Below, one piece after another: positions 1 through 5,734 of a stretch of 64,000 nucleotides of DNA (positions are counted from its first letter, which is position 1; every line of letters begins with the position of its first letter). Under the pieces are notes generated by a model that worked only from the letters and a program-made list of their open reading frames with translations, was not told the DNA's origin and searched no databases. The DNA is from Zobellia alginiliquefaciens (GTDB lineage: Bacteria > Bacteroidota > Bacteroidia > Flavobacteriales > Flavobacteriaceae), in contig NZ_CP119758.1 of NCBI RefSeq assembly GCF_029323795.1, forward strand, positions 2,542,001 to 2,606,000. Direction: 5' to 3'. A program made the translations under genes and the position numbers.

Positions 1-292
1 AGGCCAAACCTTCTTCTTTGGACCAACTTTTGGATGGTGTGGTATTCCCTAGATAATCTAAATATGAACTAAGCGCATCTTGGTCTGTTTTAAAACCTTT
101 ATAATCTACATTACCAGAGTCGTCCACATACTTTTTTAAAAGAGAATTCCAGGAACTGTGGTCTAAAACTTCGTTTTTGGTGTTTCCCGTAAACTGGTGA
201 ATGGGCATTTCTTTCCCTCCAAAAAGAGAAAAAAGTCCCGCTAAGGAAAATAGTGATACAACTGTCATTTTAGCCATTAGTTTAAATTGCAT
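1..292 (-). CDS. DUF547 family protein, N-terminal part (cut by window edge)
   Basis: Reading leftwards from the ATG at 290-292, about 97 codons are visible before the window ends. The protein opens with a hydrophobic signal segment (residues ~6-25, ending before GGKEMP). Then comes the typical start of a DUF547 domain: WNSLLKKYVDDSGNVDYKGF, a D..L..YL helix and a WSKEE stretch. DUF547 proteins are secreted or membrane-anchored and have no firmly known activity. It lies last in a same-strand run with the PNP and glycosyltransferase genes, 90 bases after the PNP stop. DUF547 genes commonly sit beside arsS in Bacteroidetes (recalled, not checked). Confidence 0.75.
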   Translation of the reverse strand, partial: MQFKLMAKMTVVSLFSLAGLFSLFGGKEMPIHQFTGNTKNEVLDHSSWNSLLKKYVDDSGNVDYKGFKTDQDALSSYLDYLGNTTPSKSWSKEEGLA

Positions 293-382
293 AGGGTTTG
301 GTAACTAGCTATAAGTAGTATTACAACTCAAAAACTTACAACATCCATTCAACTGAATTTTATAAAAACCAAAATGTACAGG

Positions 383-1198
383 CTACAAAGTCTTTATTAA
401 TTCCTTAAAAAGCTTCACCATTTTTGGCTCCGCGGTTTCTGCCGTTTCAATGATTCGCTGTATGTCTACGCTTTTTAGATTGTCCGGGTCACATTCATCC
501 GTAATTACGGAAACGGCAACTATGGGCAGATTTAAATGGTTTGCTACAATTACCTCAGGTACTGTGCTCATTCCTACAGCATCGGCACCAATGATTTTTA
601 GCATTCGGTATTCTGCCTTGGTTTCTAATTGTGGGCCTACTACTGAAGCATAAACACCTCCGTACAGGGTAATATCCTCTTTTTGGGCAATTGCAAGTAG
701 GCTTTTGCGCATAGGAACATCATAGGGTTCGGACATGTCCGTGAAACGGTCTCCAAATTTCCCTACACCTTTAAAAGCAAGTGGAGAGCCGCCTTGAAGG
801 TTGATATGGTCTTCAATTAGCATTAAATCCCCTTCTTTATAATCCAGGTTAATGGCTCCGGCAGCATTGGAAATGAACAGTTTTTTTATGCCCAGTTGGT
901 GCATAACACGAATAGGGTACGTAATATCTAGAAAATCATAACCTTCATATAGATGGAAGCGCCCTTGCATGACCACGGCCTTTTTGCCTTCTATAGTACC
1001 ATAAATGAGTTTTCCAGAGTGAAATTCTACGGTAGCCAGCGGAAAAAAAGGAATATGGTTGTAATGCGCCTCAATAGGGTCCTCTATCTGTTCTGCTAGT
1101 TTGCCTAGACCGGTACCTAGTACAATACCAATTTCAGGCGTATCAAAACCCTTGCTCTGTAGGTAGGCAACGGATTCGTTTAATTGCTTTTGGATCAT
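383..1198 (-). CDS. punA: Purine nucleoside phosphorylase, trimeric class
   Basis: A 271-residue trimeric purine nucleoside phosphorylase/MTA phosphorylase family enzyme, which splits purine nucleosides with phosphate into base and ribose-1-phosphate in the cytoplasm. Visible motifs: GTGLG (~28-32, phosphate site), GRFHLYEG, NAAGAIN, GPQLETKAE (purine-site Glu) and GADAVGMSTVPEV. The residue equivalent to human PNP Asn243 is Asp234 (ITDECDPD). Asp at this place is what MTA phosphorylases use for 6-aminopurines, so adenosine-type substrates are plausible. Its ATG overlaps the upstream glycosyltransferase stop by 4 bases (ATGA), so translation is probably coupled. The context suggests a role in arsenoriboside synthesis rather than, or as well as, general salvage. 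Confidence 0.93.
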   Translation of the reverse strand: MIQKQLNESVAYLQSKGFDTPEIGIVLGTGLGKLAEQIEDPIEAHYNHIPFFPLATVEFHSGKLIYGTIEGKKAVVMQGRFHLYEGYDFLDITYPIRVMHQLGIKKLFISNAAGAINLDYKEGDLMLIEDHINLQGGSPLAFKGVGKFGDRFTDMSEPYDVPMRKSLLAIAQKEDITLYGGVYASVVGPQLETKAEYRMLKIIGADAVGMSTVPEVIVANHLNLPIVAVSVITDECDPDNLKSVDIQRIIETAETAEPKMVKLFKELIKTL

Positions 1199-1872
1199 GT
1201 TTTAATGTGTTTTAAATAGGGCTGAAAAGCTTCTACGTCCTTAATATCCTCGTAAATATCAACATCGTTTCGCTCTTCTAAAATATGATATTTTTCGTTT
1301 TTTAAATCGTTTAAGGTGTCGGCAAGGACAGTTTTGTTCCCCCAGTTTTTTTGAACGAATAACTCTGGTTTAAAGCGGTTCATGCCCAGAAGATAATACC
1401 CGCCGTCTTCAGCTGGCCCAATTACAAAATCGTTTTTCTTTAATTCCGAAAAAGCATTTTGGATGTCTTTTTGGTCCAGGTCAAACATATCGCTGCCAAT
1501 AACAATGATTCGCTCATAGCCGGAAGCAAATCCGTCTTGAAAGGCCTTTGCCATGCGAATGCCCAAATCATTGCCTTGCTGTAATCTTTTGTCGAATATA
1601 CTCGGACTCCATATGTCGTCCGCCCAGATTTCTTCGGAATACCAAACCTGTTTTGCGGCGCTTAGGTTTTTTGTAATGTCTACCGTATGATTTAGTAGAA
1701 ACTTATATATGTCTAAAGCTACTTCATTACCAACAGTCGCTGCCAACCGGGTTTTGCACTTGCCCGATTGTGGGTTTCGCGTAAAAATGAGCAATAGATT
1801 TTTTGAAGCTACATTGGTATAATTTACCGTGGCGGCTTCTTTTTGTTTTTCTTTAGGGGTTATAAAACTCAA
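1195..1872 (-). CDS. TIGR04282 family glycosyltransferase (arsenosugar-associated type)
   Basis: A 225-residue GT-A-like nucleotidyl/glycosyl transferase of the DUF2064/TIGR04282 family. The diagnostic N-terminal motif is LLIFTRNPQSGKCKTRLA (~27-44). A VIGSDMFDL acidic motif (~120-128) is the expected metal/nucleotide site, followed by VIGPAEDGGYYLLG. The family is named from its linkage to the radical-SAM enzyme ArsS in arsenosugar biosynthesis. Which sugar nucleotide it uses is not known to me. The homology begins only near residue 25, so the true start could be slightly downstream of the chosen ATG. It ends in a 4-base overlap with the PNP gene. Confidence 0.85.
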   Translation of the reverse strand: MSFITPKEKQKEAATVNYTNVASKNLLLIFTRNPQSGKCKTRLAATVGNEVALDIYKFLLNHTVDITKNLSAAKQVWYSEEIWADDIWSPSIFDKRLQQGNDLGIRMAKAFQDGFASGYERIIVIGSDMFDLDQKDIQNAFSELKKNDFVIGPAEDGGYYLLGMNRFKPELFVQKNWGNKTVLADTLNDLKNEKYHILEERNDVDIYEDIKDVEAFQPYLKHIKT

Positions 1873-1932
1873 ATGATTATTTTTTTAGAATTTGTCGCCA
1901 AAACAGGGCATCTATTACGGACTCAAATGAAA

Positions 1933-2424
1933 CTAGTACACTTTTTCTCCTGTTTTAAGTAGTTTCCCCCAATATTTATTGAAAGCATGTACGCGCTCGG
2001 TTTCGTTTCCTATGGTGTCATAAACGGGAAGCCCTTCGTTTTTCCATTCAAAAATGCCTCCGTATAGATTTTTCACATTGGTGTAGCCTGCTTTTTCCAA
2101 TTTCTCACCAATATTTTCGGAACGGACCCCAATAGAACAGTAAACGACAATTTCACTGTCTTTATTTTGGACTTTCTGAACAACGGAATCCAGCTGAAAA
2201 GTATCATAACCCACCCAGATAGCATCTTTTAAATGGCTCACCTCGTATTCGGCCTTCTCGCGGGCATCTAATAATATAGGGCCTGTGGTAGAGTCAAGAG
2301 CTGTTACGTGAATATAATCAACAGATTCTTTGTTCAGCTTTTTTAAGGTTTTATCGATTTTACTTTGAGAAAAAGAAACCGAAGCAATACAGAGAAATAG
2401 AATTGGGGATAATTTTGTTTTCAT
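1933..2424 (-). CDS. Exported rhodanese-like protein
   Basis: A 163-residue single-domain rhodanese with a signal peptide (MKTKLSPILFLCIASVSFSQ). It would therefore act in the periplasm or on the outer membrane. The rhodanese fold is marked by LLDAREKAEYEVSHLKDA (~50-68) and the active-site loop VVYCSIGVRS (~93-102), where the Cys and the CxxGxR cradle are intact, so it could carry a persulfide. It lies 60 bases before the glycosyltransferase and 75 bases after the ADP-ribosylglycohydrolase gene, same strand. Rhodaneses are frequent companions of the TIGR04282/PNP pair in Flavobacteria (recalled). Substrate unknown. Confidence 0.88.
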   Translation of the reverse strand: MKTKLSPILFLCIASVSFSQSKIDKTLKKLNKESVDYIHVTALDSTTGPILLDAREKAEYEVSHLKDAIWVGYDTFQLDSVVQKVQNKDSEIVVYCSIGVRSENIGEKLEKAGYTNVKNLYGGIFEWKNEGLPVYDTIGNETERVHAFNKYWGKLLKTGEKVY

Positions 2425-2499
2425 GACAATTAAACTTGAAGCACAGAAACAAAGATAAGATTAATATCAGCTGCAGTTGTTAAGTCAAAACTAAGAGTT

Positions 2500-3795
2500 T
2501 TAAAACTCTATATGCTTTTTTGCAACCATTTCACGAGCCAAGGCTTCAAGGTCAATGCCCATATTTTCTTTGTTAACTTTCAGGGCTTGGGTGCGGAGCG
2601 TTACGGGTAGGTTGGAATATCCGTCTTTAGCCCCTAGAATCATACCGGCCACAGCGGCAACGGTGTCATTATCTCTTCCGTAGTTAACAATAAATTGCAA
2701 GGTCTTTTCAAAATCACCTTCGCCATATTGTAGTGCGGTAACAAGAATTTGCCAGATTTCCCCGGAGTGAAAAGGAATGGCTTTTTCGTTTTTTTCTAAA
2801 AATTGATAGGCCATTTCTTGACGCGTCCAATCTTTTTGGCTCCCTTGGAACCCTTTAGGAATTTTAAAAATAATGCTGTCTTTAGGCGTTAAGGTATCCG
2901 CTAAGATAAGTTGCTTTAAAGTGAGTACTTTTTTAACGGAGGCATCTGTCATGTCATAAGCAATACGACCGACCAGCCGACTATCCTGATAACCCAAGGG
3001 GTCTACAAAAGTTGCCGTGTTAATAATAGAGTCAATGTTTTTAGTGCGAAGTGCCATATGTGTCATTGCCGAAACCAAGGCCGAAATATCCTTAGCGTAC
3101 CCTATATCGAACAAAGTATGGTCATAAGCCAATGTATATGCATTTTCGGGAGAACTGCTAATGAGCCCAAACACAGGGGTGTATAATTGCCCTGCGCAGG
3201 ACATCTCACCGCCGTAAAAACGATTCATCGCCTTTATATAAGAATCGGTGTCTTTTTGATACGCCATACTCACGCGGGCCCATTCTTTGATCCAATCTAT
3301 TTTTTCAATCTGCGTATCTAAAAAATCGGTTTCGGGTATGGTGCCATTGTCATTTATACTCTTTGTTAGGGAGGCATAATAATCGGTTATAAAATTGGCA
3401 AAGTTAGAAGCGTTTAAATCTCCCTTTTTCTGGGATAGATACTTAACCATGGCGTATTTCCAACGGGTGTCATCCGTAGTGGCACCGGCAATAAGGTTGT
3501 GCCCCCAAGTGCCTTCCGGCGATTGCTCGCGAACTGCTGGGGTAAGGGTATTGATATAGCCGTATTTAAGTTGAATATCTTTTCTGTGCCACATTTCTGT
3601 AGACGCGCCCATGGCATCACCAATGGCAGAGCCAACGAGAGCACCTAGGACTTTATCATAATATTCCTCTTCAGAAAGCTGTAAAGTGTCTAAGGTGTAT
3701 GCGGTTTTGGTGGGTGCCGGTATATCTATTGAGGTCGTAGATTCTTTGCAGGCCATGGCTACAAGAATCGCAAGACAGGCAAATAACCGTTTCAT
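2500..3795 (-). CDS. ADP-ribosylglycohydrolase (DraG-like) family lipoprotein
   Basis: A 431-residue protein with a lipoprotein signal (MKRLFACLAILVAMAC, Cys16) and an ADP-ribosylglycohydrolase fold. The N-terminal motif is GALVGSAIGDAMGA (~51-64). The metal-binding TTDDT lies at ~106-110 and the C-terminal GRDNDTVAAVAG at ~373-384. These two acidic clusters bind the dinuclear metal in DraG/ARH3 enzymes and both look intact, so it should be an active glycosidase on a ribose C1 bond. An exported form is unlikely to act on ADP-ribosylated cytoplasmic proteins, and its substrate is open. Its first codon overlaps the stop of the upstream kinase gene by 4 bases. Confidence 0.87.
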   Translation of the reverse strand: MKRLFACLAILVAMACKESTTSIDIPAPTKTAYTLDTLQLSEEEYYDKVLGALVGSAIGDAMGASTEMWHRKDIQLKYGYINTLTPAVREQSPEGTWGHNLIAGATTDDTRWKYAMVKYLSQKKGDLNASNFANFITDYYASLTKSINDNGTIPETDFLDTQIEKIDWIKEWARVSMAYQKDTDSYIKAMNRFYGGEMSCAGQLYTPVFGLISSSPENAYTLAYDHTLFDIGYAKDISALVSAMTHMALRTKNIDSIINTATFVDPLGYQDSRLVGRIAYDMTDASVKKVLTLKQLILADTLTPKDSIIFKIPKGFQGSQKDWTRQEMAYQFLEKNEKAIPFHSGEIWQILVTALQYGEGDFEKTLQFIVNYGRDNDTVAAVAGMILGAKDGYSNLPVTLRTQALKVNKENMGIDLEALAREMVAKKHIEF

Positions 3796-4784
3796 GGCGA
3801 TAAAATAAGTTTACGAGCCTTTTTCAAAAGCTTGCTTTTTTCCTTTAATGTACGGTCTAAAGGCAATTGGGCAAGCCCAATTAAGCGCCTCATTATTTCA
3901 ATTCCAGCCACTTGGGACATAAGTTCTTGGTCGGCATCACCTTGGTAAGCGGCATGAATGCGTTTTAGGTAGCCTTTTTTACCGGTTGCCATAATGATAT
4001 GTGCGGCCATGACGCCTAAATCATATTCGGGGAAACCTATAAAACCAAATTCAGGATCTATGATATAGAGATTGTCTGATTCGGTCATCCAGCTGCCCGG
4101 GTAGTAATCGCCATGAAGTAAGGTGTTGCCGGGTTCTAAATATTTTTTACCGACCTTTTTGACTACTTTTTTTATTTTCTTATCCGTTTTAAACTGCAAG
4201 GATAGTTCTTGGAGTCCGGGTTGAACATCGTCCAATTGAAATCCGTTATCCTCTAAAAATGGAAGTTCAAAAATATGTTGGTGGTTTAACTTGCGCATTT
4301 CCATATTCTCAGGAAAGTTGCTCGAAACCTTTTTACGGTGAATAAGACCTAAGATAAAGATCAACAGATCTAGTTGTCGGTTTGATATGGCCTGTTTATG
4401 GTAGATGTAAACCATATCTTCACAATGGCCCAAATCTTCTAACAGTAACAAATTCTCAAAAGCATCAAACCCAATAATCTTTGGAACGTGGGCATGAACG
4501 GCATTGTCCCTAACTGCTTGGTAGAACTGTTTTTCTACCGCAATGCGGTTTACTGGTGCTTTAATCTGTTGGTATTTCTGTACGTAGGGGCGGGATTGTT
4601 TTAAGATAAAAGAGCGCTGATCCGTTATAATACGCAGAACCACATTCATGTTTCCGTCGCCAGGTTTCTCTACTACAGTTATTTTTTCAGTGGGATTTAA
4701 CCATTCTTTGGATAGTAGATAATTCTGAAGCTCCTCTAGGGGGGTGTTGGTATCTATTATAGTCAAAACAGTAGTTTTGTGCAA
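3792..4784 (-). CDS. MtnK-like (methylthioribose kinase-type) small-molecule kinase
   Basis: A 330-residue protein of the APH/choline-kinase fold with features of S-methyl-5-thioribose kinase rather than aminoglycoside kinases. These are GDGNMNVVLR (~42-51) and FILKQSRPYVQ (~59-69) in the N-lobe, HGDYYPGS (224-231, catalytic Asp226, GS in place of the usual GN) and IDPEFGFIG (~242-250), where the D-x-E pair is the MtnK metal motif. MtnK phosphorylates the C1 hydroxyl of methylthioribose. No mtnA or other methionine-salvage genes are visible here, so the substrate may be another 5-substituted ribose. It is the first gene of the minus-strand run, after the tRNA-Phe terminator, and no clear promoter of its own was seen. 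Confidence 0.75.
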   Translation of the reverse strand: MHKTTVLTIIDTNTPLEELQNYLLSKEWLNPTEKITVVEKPGDGNMNVVLRIITDQRSFILKQSRPYVQKYQQIKAPVNRIAVEKQFYQAVRDNAVHAHVPKIIGFDAFENLLLLEDLGHCEDMVYIYHKQAISNRQLDLLIFILGLIHRKKVSSNFPENMEMRKLNHQHIFELPFLEDNGFQLDDVQPGLQELSLQFKTDKKIKKVVKKVGKKYLEPGNTLLHGDYYPGSWMTESDNLYIIDPEFGFIGFPEYDLGVMAAHIIMATGKKGYLKRIHAAYQGDADQELMSQVAGIEIMRRLIGLAQLPLDRTLKEKSKLLKKARKLILSP

Positions 4785-4829: not shown

Positions 4830-4830
4830 G

Positions 4831-4903
4831 TGGTGCCTCCAGGAATCGAACCAGGGACACATGGATTTTCAGTCCATTGCTCTACCAACTGAGCTAAGGC
4901 ACC
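4831..4903 (-). tRNA. tRNA-Phe (GAA anticodon)
   Basis: A 73-nt cloverleaf on the minus strand. The acceptor arm GGTGCCT pairs with AGGCACC, the anticodon loop is CTGAAAA (anticodon GAA, + strand 4868-4870), and the T-arm contains GGTTCGATTCC. The discriminator is A and CCA is not encoded. It has its own promoter at 4922-4952 and terminator at 4800-4829. Confidence 0.97.
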
Positions 4904-4952: not shown

Positions 4953-5005
4953 CAAATTTTGAAAAAAAGATGAAAGTTAGATAACATTTTTTGATCTTTG
5001 CACTT

Positions 5006-5734
5006 ATGAAACTAGTTATAGATGCTGGTAATACTTGTGTGAAACTTGCGGTGTTTGAGGGAGATACCCTCATATTCCGGCAGAATTCAGACGTGAAAGA
5101 TGTGGCCCGGGAGGTAAAGGAAATTTGTGACCATTATCCCAAAATAAAACGTGGAATAATCGCTTCGGTGGGTAATTTGGACCCAAAAGTGATGCCGGTG
5201 CTCACAGTTTTCTGCGAAGTTCACGAATTAACACCCTCTAGCAGGGCCCCTTTTAAAAACTCTTATGCAACACCTCAAACTTTAGGGGTGGATCGTATAG
5301 CCTTAGCAACGGCTGCCTTTTATCATAACCCAAAAGGGAATAGTTTGGTAATCGATGCCGGTACTTGCGTTACATATGATATGGTGAACGATTATGGGGA
5401 GTATTTAGGTGGCGCCATTTCGCCTGGGTTGCACATGCGCTATAAAGCATTACATCAACAAACTTCAAAATTACCGCTATTGAAACCTAAGGAGTTAATA
5501 GACTATATTGGGAACTCTACGGAAACAAGTATTCATAGTGGTGTAGTAAATGGTATTTGTAGGGAAATAGACGGAGTAATAGACCAATACAAATCTCGTT
5601 TTGCAGATTTAACAGTTATTTTAACAGGCGGTGACATGCAATTTTTGTCTAAACGGTTAAAAAATACCATATTTGCGGACTCCAAATTTCTCCTTGTAGG
5701 ATTAAATTATCTGTTGGAATACAACAAACGCTAA
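5006..5734 (+). CDS. coaX: Type III pantothenate kinase
   Basis: A 242-residue type III pantothenate kinase, first step of coenzyme A synthesis in the cytoplasm. Visible: DAGNTCVKLAVFEGD at the N-terminus (ASKHA phosphate-1 motif), GVDRIALATAA (~90-100), VIDAGTCVTYDMV (~113-125) and GGAISPGLHMRY, then LTGGD near the C-terminus. I place the start at ATG 5006 because homology begins there (MKLVIDAGNT); an upstream TTG at 4991 would only add five residues. The stop overlaps the ATG of the next gene (TAATG), and it heads a co-directional run to ppiD. Confidence 0.95.
   Translation: MKLVIDAGNTCVKLAVFEGDTLIFRQNSDVKDVAREVKEICDHYPKIKRGIIASVGNLDPKVMPVLTVFCEVHELTPSSRAPFKNSYATPQTLGVDRIALATAAFYHNPKGNSLVIDAGTCVTYDMVNDYGEYLGGAISPGLHMRYKALHQQTSKLPLLKPKELIDYIGNSTETSIHSGVVNGICREIDGVIDQYKSRFADLTVILTGGDMQFLSKRLKNTIFADSKFLLVGLNYLLEYNKR

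Follow-up and report, generated by a model that had tools for sequence, protein, structure and literature searches.

In a 64,000-nucleotide stretch of the Zobellia alginiliquefaciens genome, referred to here as the window (G000:C1:2542001-2606000 in a single-contig genome of 5,066,785 bases that is 99.99% complete), a run of genes on the minus strand places enzymes named after arsenosugar synthesis next to enzymes resembling those of sugar salvage. The question raised by this locus is whether these genes function as one pathway. Read leftward, the run encodes a sugar kinase resembling methylthioribose (MTR) kinase (kin), a glycohydrolase of the ARH/DraG fold (arh), a rhodanese-domain protein, a TIGR04282 transferase, a purine nucleoside phosphorylase (PNP), a DUF547 protein and, outside the window, a TIGR04283 glycosyltransferase of family 2 (GT2). 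The original prediction treated the first six of these genes as an arsenosugar cluster, where kin and arh would apply chemistry of the methylthioadenosine (MTA)-salvage type to arsenic nucleosides. We regard it as reasonably probable that the run is instead the remnant of an arsenosugar operon standing beside an independent sugar-salvage pair, i.e., an exported glycosidase and a kinase acting at C1. The rhodanese, TIGR04282, PNP and DUF547 genes thus keep the predicted affiliation by descent, while kin and arh form a separate module.

The gene arrangement is confirmed as real, conserved and not due to chance, because it recurs in all five named Zobellia loci, with identical gene content and order, and in other genera. 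The kinases of the five named Zobellia genomes are 84-90% identical to kin, and the same run, with additions or losses, is found in Pseudozobellia, Maribacter, Eudoraea and others. The named loci referred to throughout are the best 80 of 120 kinase relatives, and 49 of these genomes were searched whole. Within the window, the coordinates, strand and family calls of the six genes were all reproduced. Several of the genes had been said to overlap by 4 bases, which is correct for two of the five junctions (kin/arh and TIGR04282/PNP), while the remaining three are gaps of 75, 60 and 90 bases. The DUF547 and TIGR04283 genes overlap by 14 bases.

The part of the run that extends from the rhodanese gene to the TIGR04283 gene is an arsenosugar operon by descent, from which ArsS and ArsM have been lost. 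In 397 genomes of the same family, ArsS (TIGR04167) is found in 287 and TIGR04283 in 264; the two occur together in 243 genomes, TIGR04283 alone in 21, ArsS alone in 44 and neither in 89. This co-occurrence identifies the genes as those of an arsenosugar operon by association. Two genomes of this sample carry multiple copies, G458 with four TIGR04283 matches and G298 (84% complete) with three ArsS matches. Forty TIGR04283 loci were fetched, 11 from ArsS-less genomes and 29 from ArsS-bearing ones; the former derive from the 21 TIGR04283-only genomes, of which the present one and 11 others were read, and the latter are 29 of the 243 genomes with both genes, taken from the higher-scoring listed places. 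In 17 of the 40 loci ArsS is located inside the same 19-kb stretch, in some cases several kb from the rhodanese gene. The named-locus and family-genome samples overlap in part, as contigs of equal length show, and are not independent, and several genomes are metagenome-assembled genomes or drafts, in which an absence carries less weight.

The known arsenosugar operon (ArsS TIGR04167, ArsM NF038099, TIGR04282, TIGR04283, PNP and TIGR04169) is illustrated by one run in Algibacter (L223), where a TIGR04169 peroxidase-like protein, ArsS, an NF045521 rhodanese, TIGR04282, PNP and an NF038099 ArsM are followed by a 527-aa protein, DUF547 and TIGR04283, and then by a 642-aa gene, tRNA-Phe and coaX. 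In this run ArsS, the rhodanese, TIGR04282, PNP, ArsM and TIGR04283 were assigned by curated models and DUF547 by BLAST; the 527-aa protein (L223:3460-5043) matched neither Pfam nor NCBIfam models at the thresholds applied. In a second locus (L240), ArsS, tRNA-Phe and coaX stand in the same relation. The claim that TIGR04282 and PNP accompany ArsS is therefore borne out, both by the 17 stretches mentioned above and by the Algibacter run. The Zobellia run has the same core, the same rhodanese-TIGR04282-PNP-DUF547-TIGR04283 order and the same tRNA-Phe/coaX flank, but differs in that arh and kin are found at the arsS end and ArsM is gone. Other gene contents are seen elsewhere: among the 80 named kinase loci, 17 still have ArsM within the run, e.g., that of Pseudozobellia thermophila (L027), and three Pricia loci have kept the rhodanese, TIGR04282 and PNP genes but not those for DUF547 and TIGR04283. 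Pareuzebyella sediminis (L026) harbors the kinase and an ArsM-bearing operon, and arh was not found between them.

The genes for ArsS and ArsM had been expected to the left of base 1. None was found there or elsewhere in the genome, which counts against the original prediction by its own test. The best TIGR04167 score in the 5.07-Mb single-contig genome is 41.9 bits, at a cut-off of 300, and comparably low scores are obtained in 14 of 14 control genomes. A genome search for the arsenosugar ArsM, using a single-protein query from a relative, gave no score above 23 bits, and this over only part of the query, and the NF038099 ArsM family model yielded no matches in five other Zobellia genomes. 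No open reading frame for a TIGR04169 peroxidase-like protein was found in the run, in a search limited to the run and its left flank. All four genomes of the genus in the family sample, including the present one, have TIGR04283 without ArsS, i.e., Zobellia is an exception within a gene set that is otherwise strongly linked to ArsS. A whole-genome search of the 49 kinase-bearing genomes identified ArsS in 31 and ArsM in 25. In 42 whole-searched genomes the TIGR04282-PNP operon is located at the kinase locus, 24 of them with ArsS and 18 without, the latter including all five named Zobellia and both Pricia genomes searched. Given the negative genome searches for ArsS and the arsenosugar ArsM, the Zobellia run was rejected as a working ArsS pathway, and chemistry of the MTA-salvage type on arsenic nucleosides by kin and arh is unsupported.

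The remaining operon genes nevertheless appear to be kept under selection without ArsS. Wherever the ratio of nonsynonymous to synonymous substitution rates (dN/dS) could be computed, in the ArsS-less Zobellia, Pricia and Eudoraea and also in Maribacter, it lies at 0.02-0.26; these values are rough, since dS often exceeds 1 or could not be calculated, and TIGR04283 yielded no ratio within Zobellia. On the basis of the low dN/dS, decaying debris was rejected as a description of these genes. Purifying selection in the absence of ArsS would also be expected if the genes had an ordinary role unrelated to arsenic, with the PNP as the main purine phosphorylase and the transferases making some other glycoside. 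The genome contains only two PF01048 matches, the PNP and a protein nearest to uridine phosphorylase models and below their cut-offs. This could account for the retention of the PNP, but not for that of the transferases, and the tracking of ArsS by TIGR04283 across the 397 genomes argues against a role of this kind, which we consider unlikely, if still a serious candidate.

The kin-arh pair is an independent module that became the neighbour of the operon. Neither gene is present in any of the 17 TIGR04283 stretches that hold ArsS, so the pair was rejected as a fixed part of ArsS operons, and the neighbourhood comparison gives no support to the idea that kin and arh are members of the pathway. 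Between arh and the rhodanese gene, 44 of 53 loci have an opposite-strand GH32 gene (36 under a stricter test), which makes a single transcript spanning arh and the rhodanese gene unlikely in most such relatives. In the present genome no gene separates the two. Three Eudoraea loci (L054, L057 and L060) additionally contain genes for glucuronate isomerase, mannonate oxidoreductase and mannonate dehydratase between arh and GH32, these families being assigned on representatives only. The link between kin and arh themselves is close, with 54 of 66 loci showing a 4-base overlap. A search of open-licence literature turned up no account of this pairing.

The composition of the pair was followed in an alignment of 90 kinases, which leaves out the weak kinase of G136 and the strong kinase of G185, of which only the neighbour was read. 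For 87 of the 90, an exported-type glycohydrolase is encoded in the locus; here, "exported-type" refers to N-termini judged by eye and to a loose sequence pattern. This enzyme belongs to the ARH family in 64 loci, to the nucleoside hydrolases in 12, to both in 5 and to a second nucleoside-hydrolase type in 6, as assigned by Pfam on representatives only, and the ARH and nucleoside hydrolase families are unrelated. Sixteen named loci have a nucleoside hydrolase gene ahead of the kinase gene on the same strand, and arh is present as well in five of these. On the kinase tree, parts of which are weak or have long branches, at least 5 changes in the presence of arh are needed, 3 of them imposed by well-supported branches; for the nucleoside hydrolase the minimum is 9, of which 4 are imposed in this way. 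A separate count of 9 changes refers to ARH-only loci versus all others. Thus, the hydrolase is exchanged while the kinase remains constant, and the kinase is thereby linked with the sugar that hydrolases of either type would set free.

A similar picture emerges from a class-level sample of 188 genomes, in which the kinase is found in 12, one match being weak. Ten of the 11 genomes with strong matches lack ArsS, the exception being G085, and outside the organism's own family this applies to 9 of 10. An exported-type glycohydrolase adjoins the kinase in 10 of the 11 (G085 shows none), with ARH in 3, including the present genome, and a nucleoside hydrolase in 7.

What the kinase acts upon can be narrowed down by comparison with enzymes of known structure. 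The protein scores above the cut-off for PF01636 (APH) and reaches 131.1 bits for TIGR01767, below the equivalog cut-off of 275. Its closest relatives with solved structures are, by sequence, the plant and Bacillus MTR kinases (E values of 1.3e-16 and 9.7e-15). A fold search using the AlphaFold model of kin (pLDDT 93) returned MTR kinases as 15 of the 16 best PDB chains (E values of 4.5e-17 to 3.7e-13); PsiK came at ranks 10 and 17, and matches to APH and choline kinases were weaker by about nine orders. The predicted relationship to MTR kinase was therefore correct. A kinase 51% identical to kin is found in the gammaproteobacterium Agaribacter marinus (L092, Alteromonadaceae), where a predicted esterase is encoded upstream; this gene was perhaps transferred from Bacteroidota.

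According to the passages of the structural study used here (PMC2194712), the G-loop of MTR kinase has the sequence GXGNXN, the Asp of HGD contacts O1 and O2, DXE binds Mg with the next Phe on the face of the sugar, and the first Arg of RR, three residues after a Glu or Lys, contacts O2 and O3. The methylthio group is capped by the Trp of the W-loop, L180/V184 and L345/V370 (PMC2194712, same passages). In kin and its relatives, the HGD Asp, DPEF, RR and the Glu three residues before RR (E296) are conserved in 90 of 90 aligned kinases, and the two Gly of GXGNXN are kept in 89 and 88. The position of L180/V184 is occupied by His170, a His in all 90 sequences, in an alignment that agrees with both solved enzymes. 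At the tip of the W-loop, where the alignment is less certain than at His170, no Trp is found and Ala-Pro is invariant. Only one hydrophobic cap site remains, Leu304 at the position of L345 (Leu in 85, Ile in 3 and Val in 2 of the 90). From these alignments, ribose recognition is predicted to be kept and the methylthio cap to be altered. Furthermore, an isomerase of the MtnA/DrdI type was not found, as the genome contains no PF01008 match (9 of 14 control genomes do). Because the ribose site is kept, the cap is changed and PF01008 was not found, kin likely phosphorylates C1 of a ribose-type, perhaps 5-modified, sugar, and MTR salvage by kin is unlikely. In other words, kin has in common with MtnK (PDB 2olc, 2pun and 2pyw) the fold and the motifs for ribose, Mg and nucleotide, but differs in its score below the family cut-off, in the cap and in the lack of an MtnA in the genome. 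For the same reasons, kin was rejected as a canonical MtnK or DrdK.

The fold and the ribose-site motifs would also be compatible with disposal of by-products of S-adenosylmethionine, where kin would phosphorylate methylthioribose or 5-deoxyribose, as happens in methionine salvage and in the dihydroxyacetone phosphate (DHAP) shunt. In the excerpt of PMC6079011 considered here, 5-deoxyribose salvage by the DHAP shunt (drdK, drdI and drdA) likewise relies on an MTR-kinase-like C1 kinase; DrdK, a paralogue of MTR kinase, phosphorylates 5-deoxyribose and MTR, and an entry by a nucleosidase plus the kinase is drawn. A passage in PMC6302742 mentions a periplasmic MTA nucleosidase for Aeromonas. In Zobellia, however, no isomerase of that family was found and the partner hydrolase is of the exported type, from the ARH or nucleoside-hydrolase family; together with the TIGR01767 score and the changed capping residues, these differences make such a role improbable.

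The partner of the kinase, arh, matches PF03747 with 127.9 bits (cut-off 26.2). The metal-site motif TDDT is found in 69 of 69 arh sequences and DNDT in all 67 that reach it, and the best folds for the arh model (pLDDT 80) include MJ1187 (1t5j), a Thermus protein, DraG and ARH3. The protein thus shares the domain, both metal-site motifs and the fold with the DraG, ARH1 and ARH3 family, from which it differs in its translationally coupled sugar-kinase partner and in an N-terminus that resembles a lipoprotein signal, with a loose lipobox pattern in 54 of the 69 sequences; a glycohydrolase activity is predicted.

In the explanation that we favor, i.e., a remnant operon beside an independent salvage pair, kin and arh have, as synteny shows, the position beside tRNA-Phe and coaX that arsS holds in Algibacter and other relatives. 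The ARH-fold lipoprotein would hydrolyze, outside the cytoplasm, a bond at C1 of ribose in a nucleoside, ADP-ribose conjugate or riboside, thereby freeing a ribofuranose. This sugar would be imported and its C1 hydroxyl phosphorylated by kin using ATP, as is done by methylthioribose kinase. A methylthio group at the 5-position of the sugar is unlikely, because the predicted capping residue is an invariant His and the W-loop tip has no Trp. The sugar-1-phosphate would most likely enter at the PNP or be activated by the TIGR04282 protein, which is CofC-like; it would not be routed to an MtnA-type isomerase because none was found in the genome.

Several observations weigh against this explanation. 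Known ARH enzymes often act on proteins inside cells. The operon genes are under selection without ArsS and hence more than mere debris, and they remain neighbours of kin and arh in many species. The pair is located beside the operon in 8 of 11 ArsS-less TIGR04283 genomes versus 3 of 29 ArsS-bearing ones, a difference that the Fisher value of 0.0003 overstates because the genomes are largely of one clade. Taken together, the two modules could cooperate. In seven searched family genomes the kinase is found away from the operon and ArsS is present in all seven, although the family rate of 287/397 tempers this number.

Zobellia lives on seaweeds, and the two modules may be joined by the reuse of algal arsenosugars. 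The surface glycohydrolase would then free 5-deoxy-5-dimethylarsinoyl-ribose from seaweed arsenosugars, kin would make the 1-phosphate, and TIGR04282 and TIGR04283 would use the activated sugar, so that ArsS and ArsM would be dispensable. This scheme would fit the purifying selection on the operon genes without ArsS in Zobellia and Eudoraea, the position of kin and arh beside ArsS-less operons and the changed methylthio cap; moreover, in the section of PMC6656958 referred to here, seaweed organoarsenic is mostly arsenosugars and arsenolipids. Yet the comparison of ArsS-less and ArsS-bearing genomes includes a clade effect, and TIGR04283 exceeds its cut-off in none of the other 10 strong kinase genomes of the class sample, 9 of which lack ArsS. 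We therefore consider the scheme doubtful to a high degree; if true, it would define a biological pathway by which arsenosugars are reused or degraded and a new kinase subfamily with a changed 5-pocket. Least probable by our estimate, and very improbable, is a single arsenosugar pathway, with PNP, kinase and glycohydrolase acting one after another inside the cell on an arsenic nucleoside made by ArsS: the operon's descent, the likeness of kin to MTR kinase, the presence of ArsS somewhere in 24 of the 42 genomes whose kinase locus includes the operon, and that of ArsM in 17 of 80 runs would agree with it, but the genome has neither ArsS nor arsenosugar ArsM by search, the 17 ArsS-holding stretches lack kin and arh, and 10 of the 11 strong class-sample genomes lack ArsS.

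Table 1. Genes of the Zobellia run and its right flank (positions without a prefix refer to the window).
Feature	Position	Strand	Remarks
kin, MTR-kinase-like sugar kinase	3792..4784	-	330 aa; called from a TTG, start codon uncertain
arh, ARH/DraG-fold glycohydrolase, lipoprotein-type N-terminus	2500..3795	-	431 aa; 4-base overlap with kin
Rhodanese-domain protein, NF045521 (rhoda_near_glyco)	1933..2424	-	Over cut-off; signal-like N-terminus by eye
TIGR04282 (DUF2064, CofC-like) transferase of arsenosugar operon	1195..1872	-	Over cut-off
Purine nucleoside phosphorylase (PNP)	383..1198	-	NF006054 over cut-off; higher-scoring of the genome's two PF01048 matches
DUF547 protein, PF04784	1..292, cut by window edge; whole gene L002:11522-12292	-	
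TIGR04283 GT2	L002:10831-11535, left of base 1		Over cut-off; last gene of run
tRNA-Phe (GAA)	4830..4903	-	Between kin and coaX; flank common to ArsS-bearing operons L223 and L240
coaX, type III pantothenate kinase	4991..5734	+	Flank gene common to relatives

At the left end of the run, the TIGR04283 gene is followed by an amidase gene on the opposite strand. Further to the left (L002:6439-8634) is a row of three genes that seem to encode an SDR, a protein resembling AhpD and a flavin amine oxidase, the first and last identified by eye; the AhpD-like protein (L002:7253-7594) scores 73.7 bits against TIGR04169, for which the cut-off is 120. A second TIGR04283 glycosyltransferase, over the cut-off with 191.7 bits, is encoded far from the run (G000:C1:142930-143595).

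These data pull apart two things that are merged under database names. The so-called arsenosugar glycosyltransferases appear to persist under selection in genomes where no ArsS is found, which would mean either that these transferases have another job or that arsenosugars made by others are used. The unassigned kinase subfamily, whose members are linked with exported-type glycohydrolases from either of two unrelated families, is a candidate C1 kinase for ribose or 5-modified ribose.

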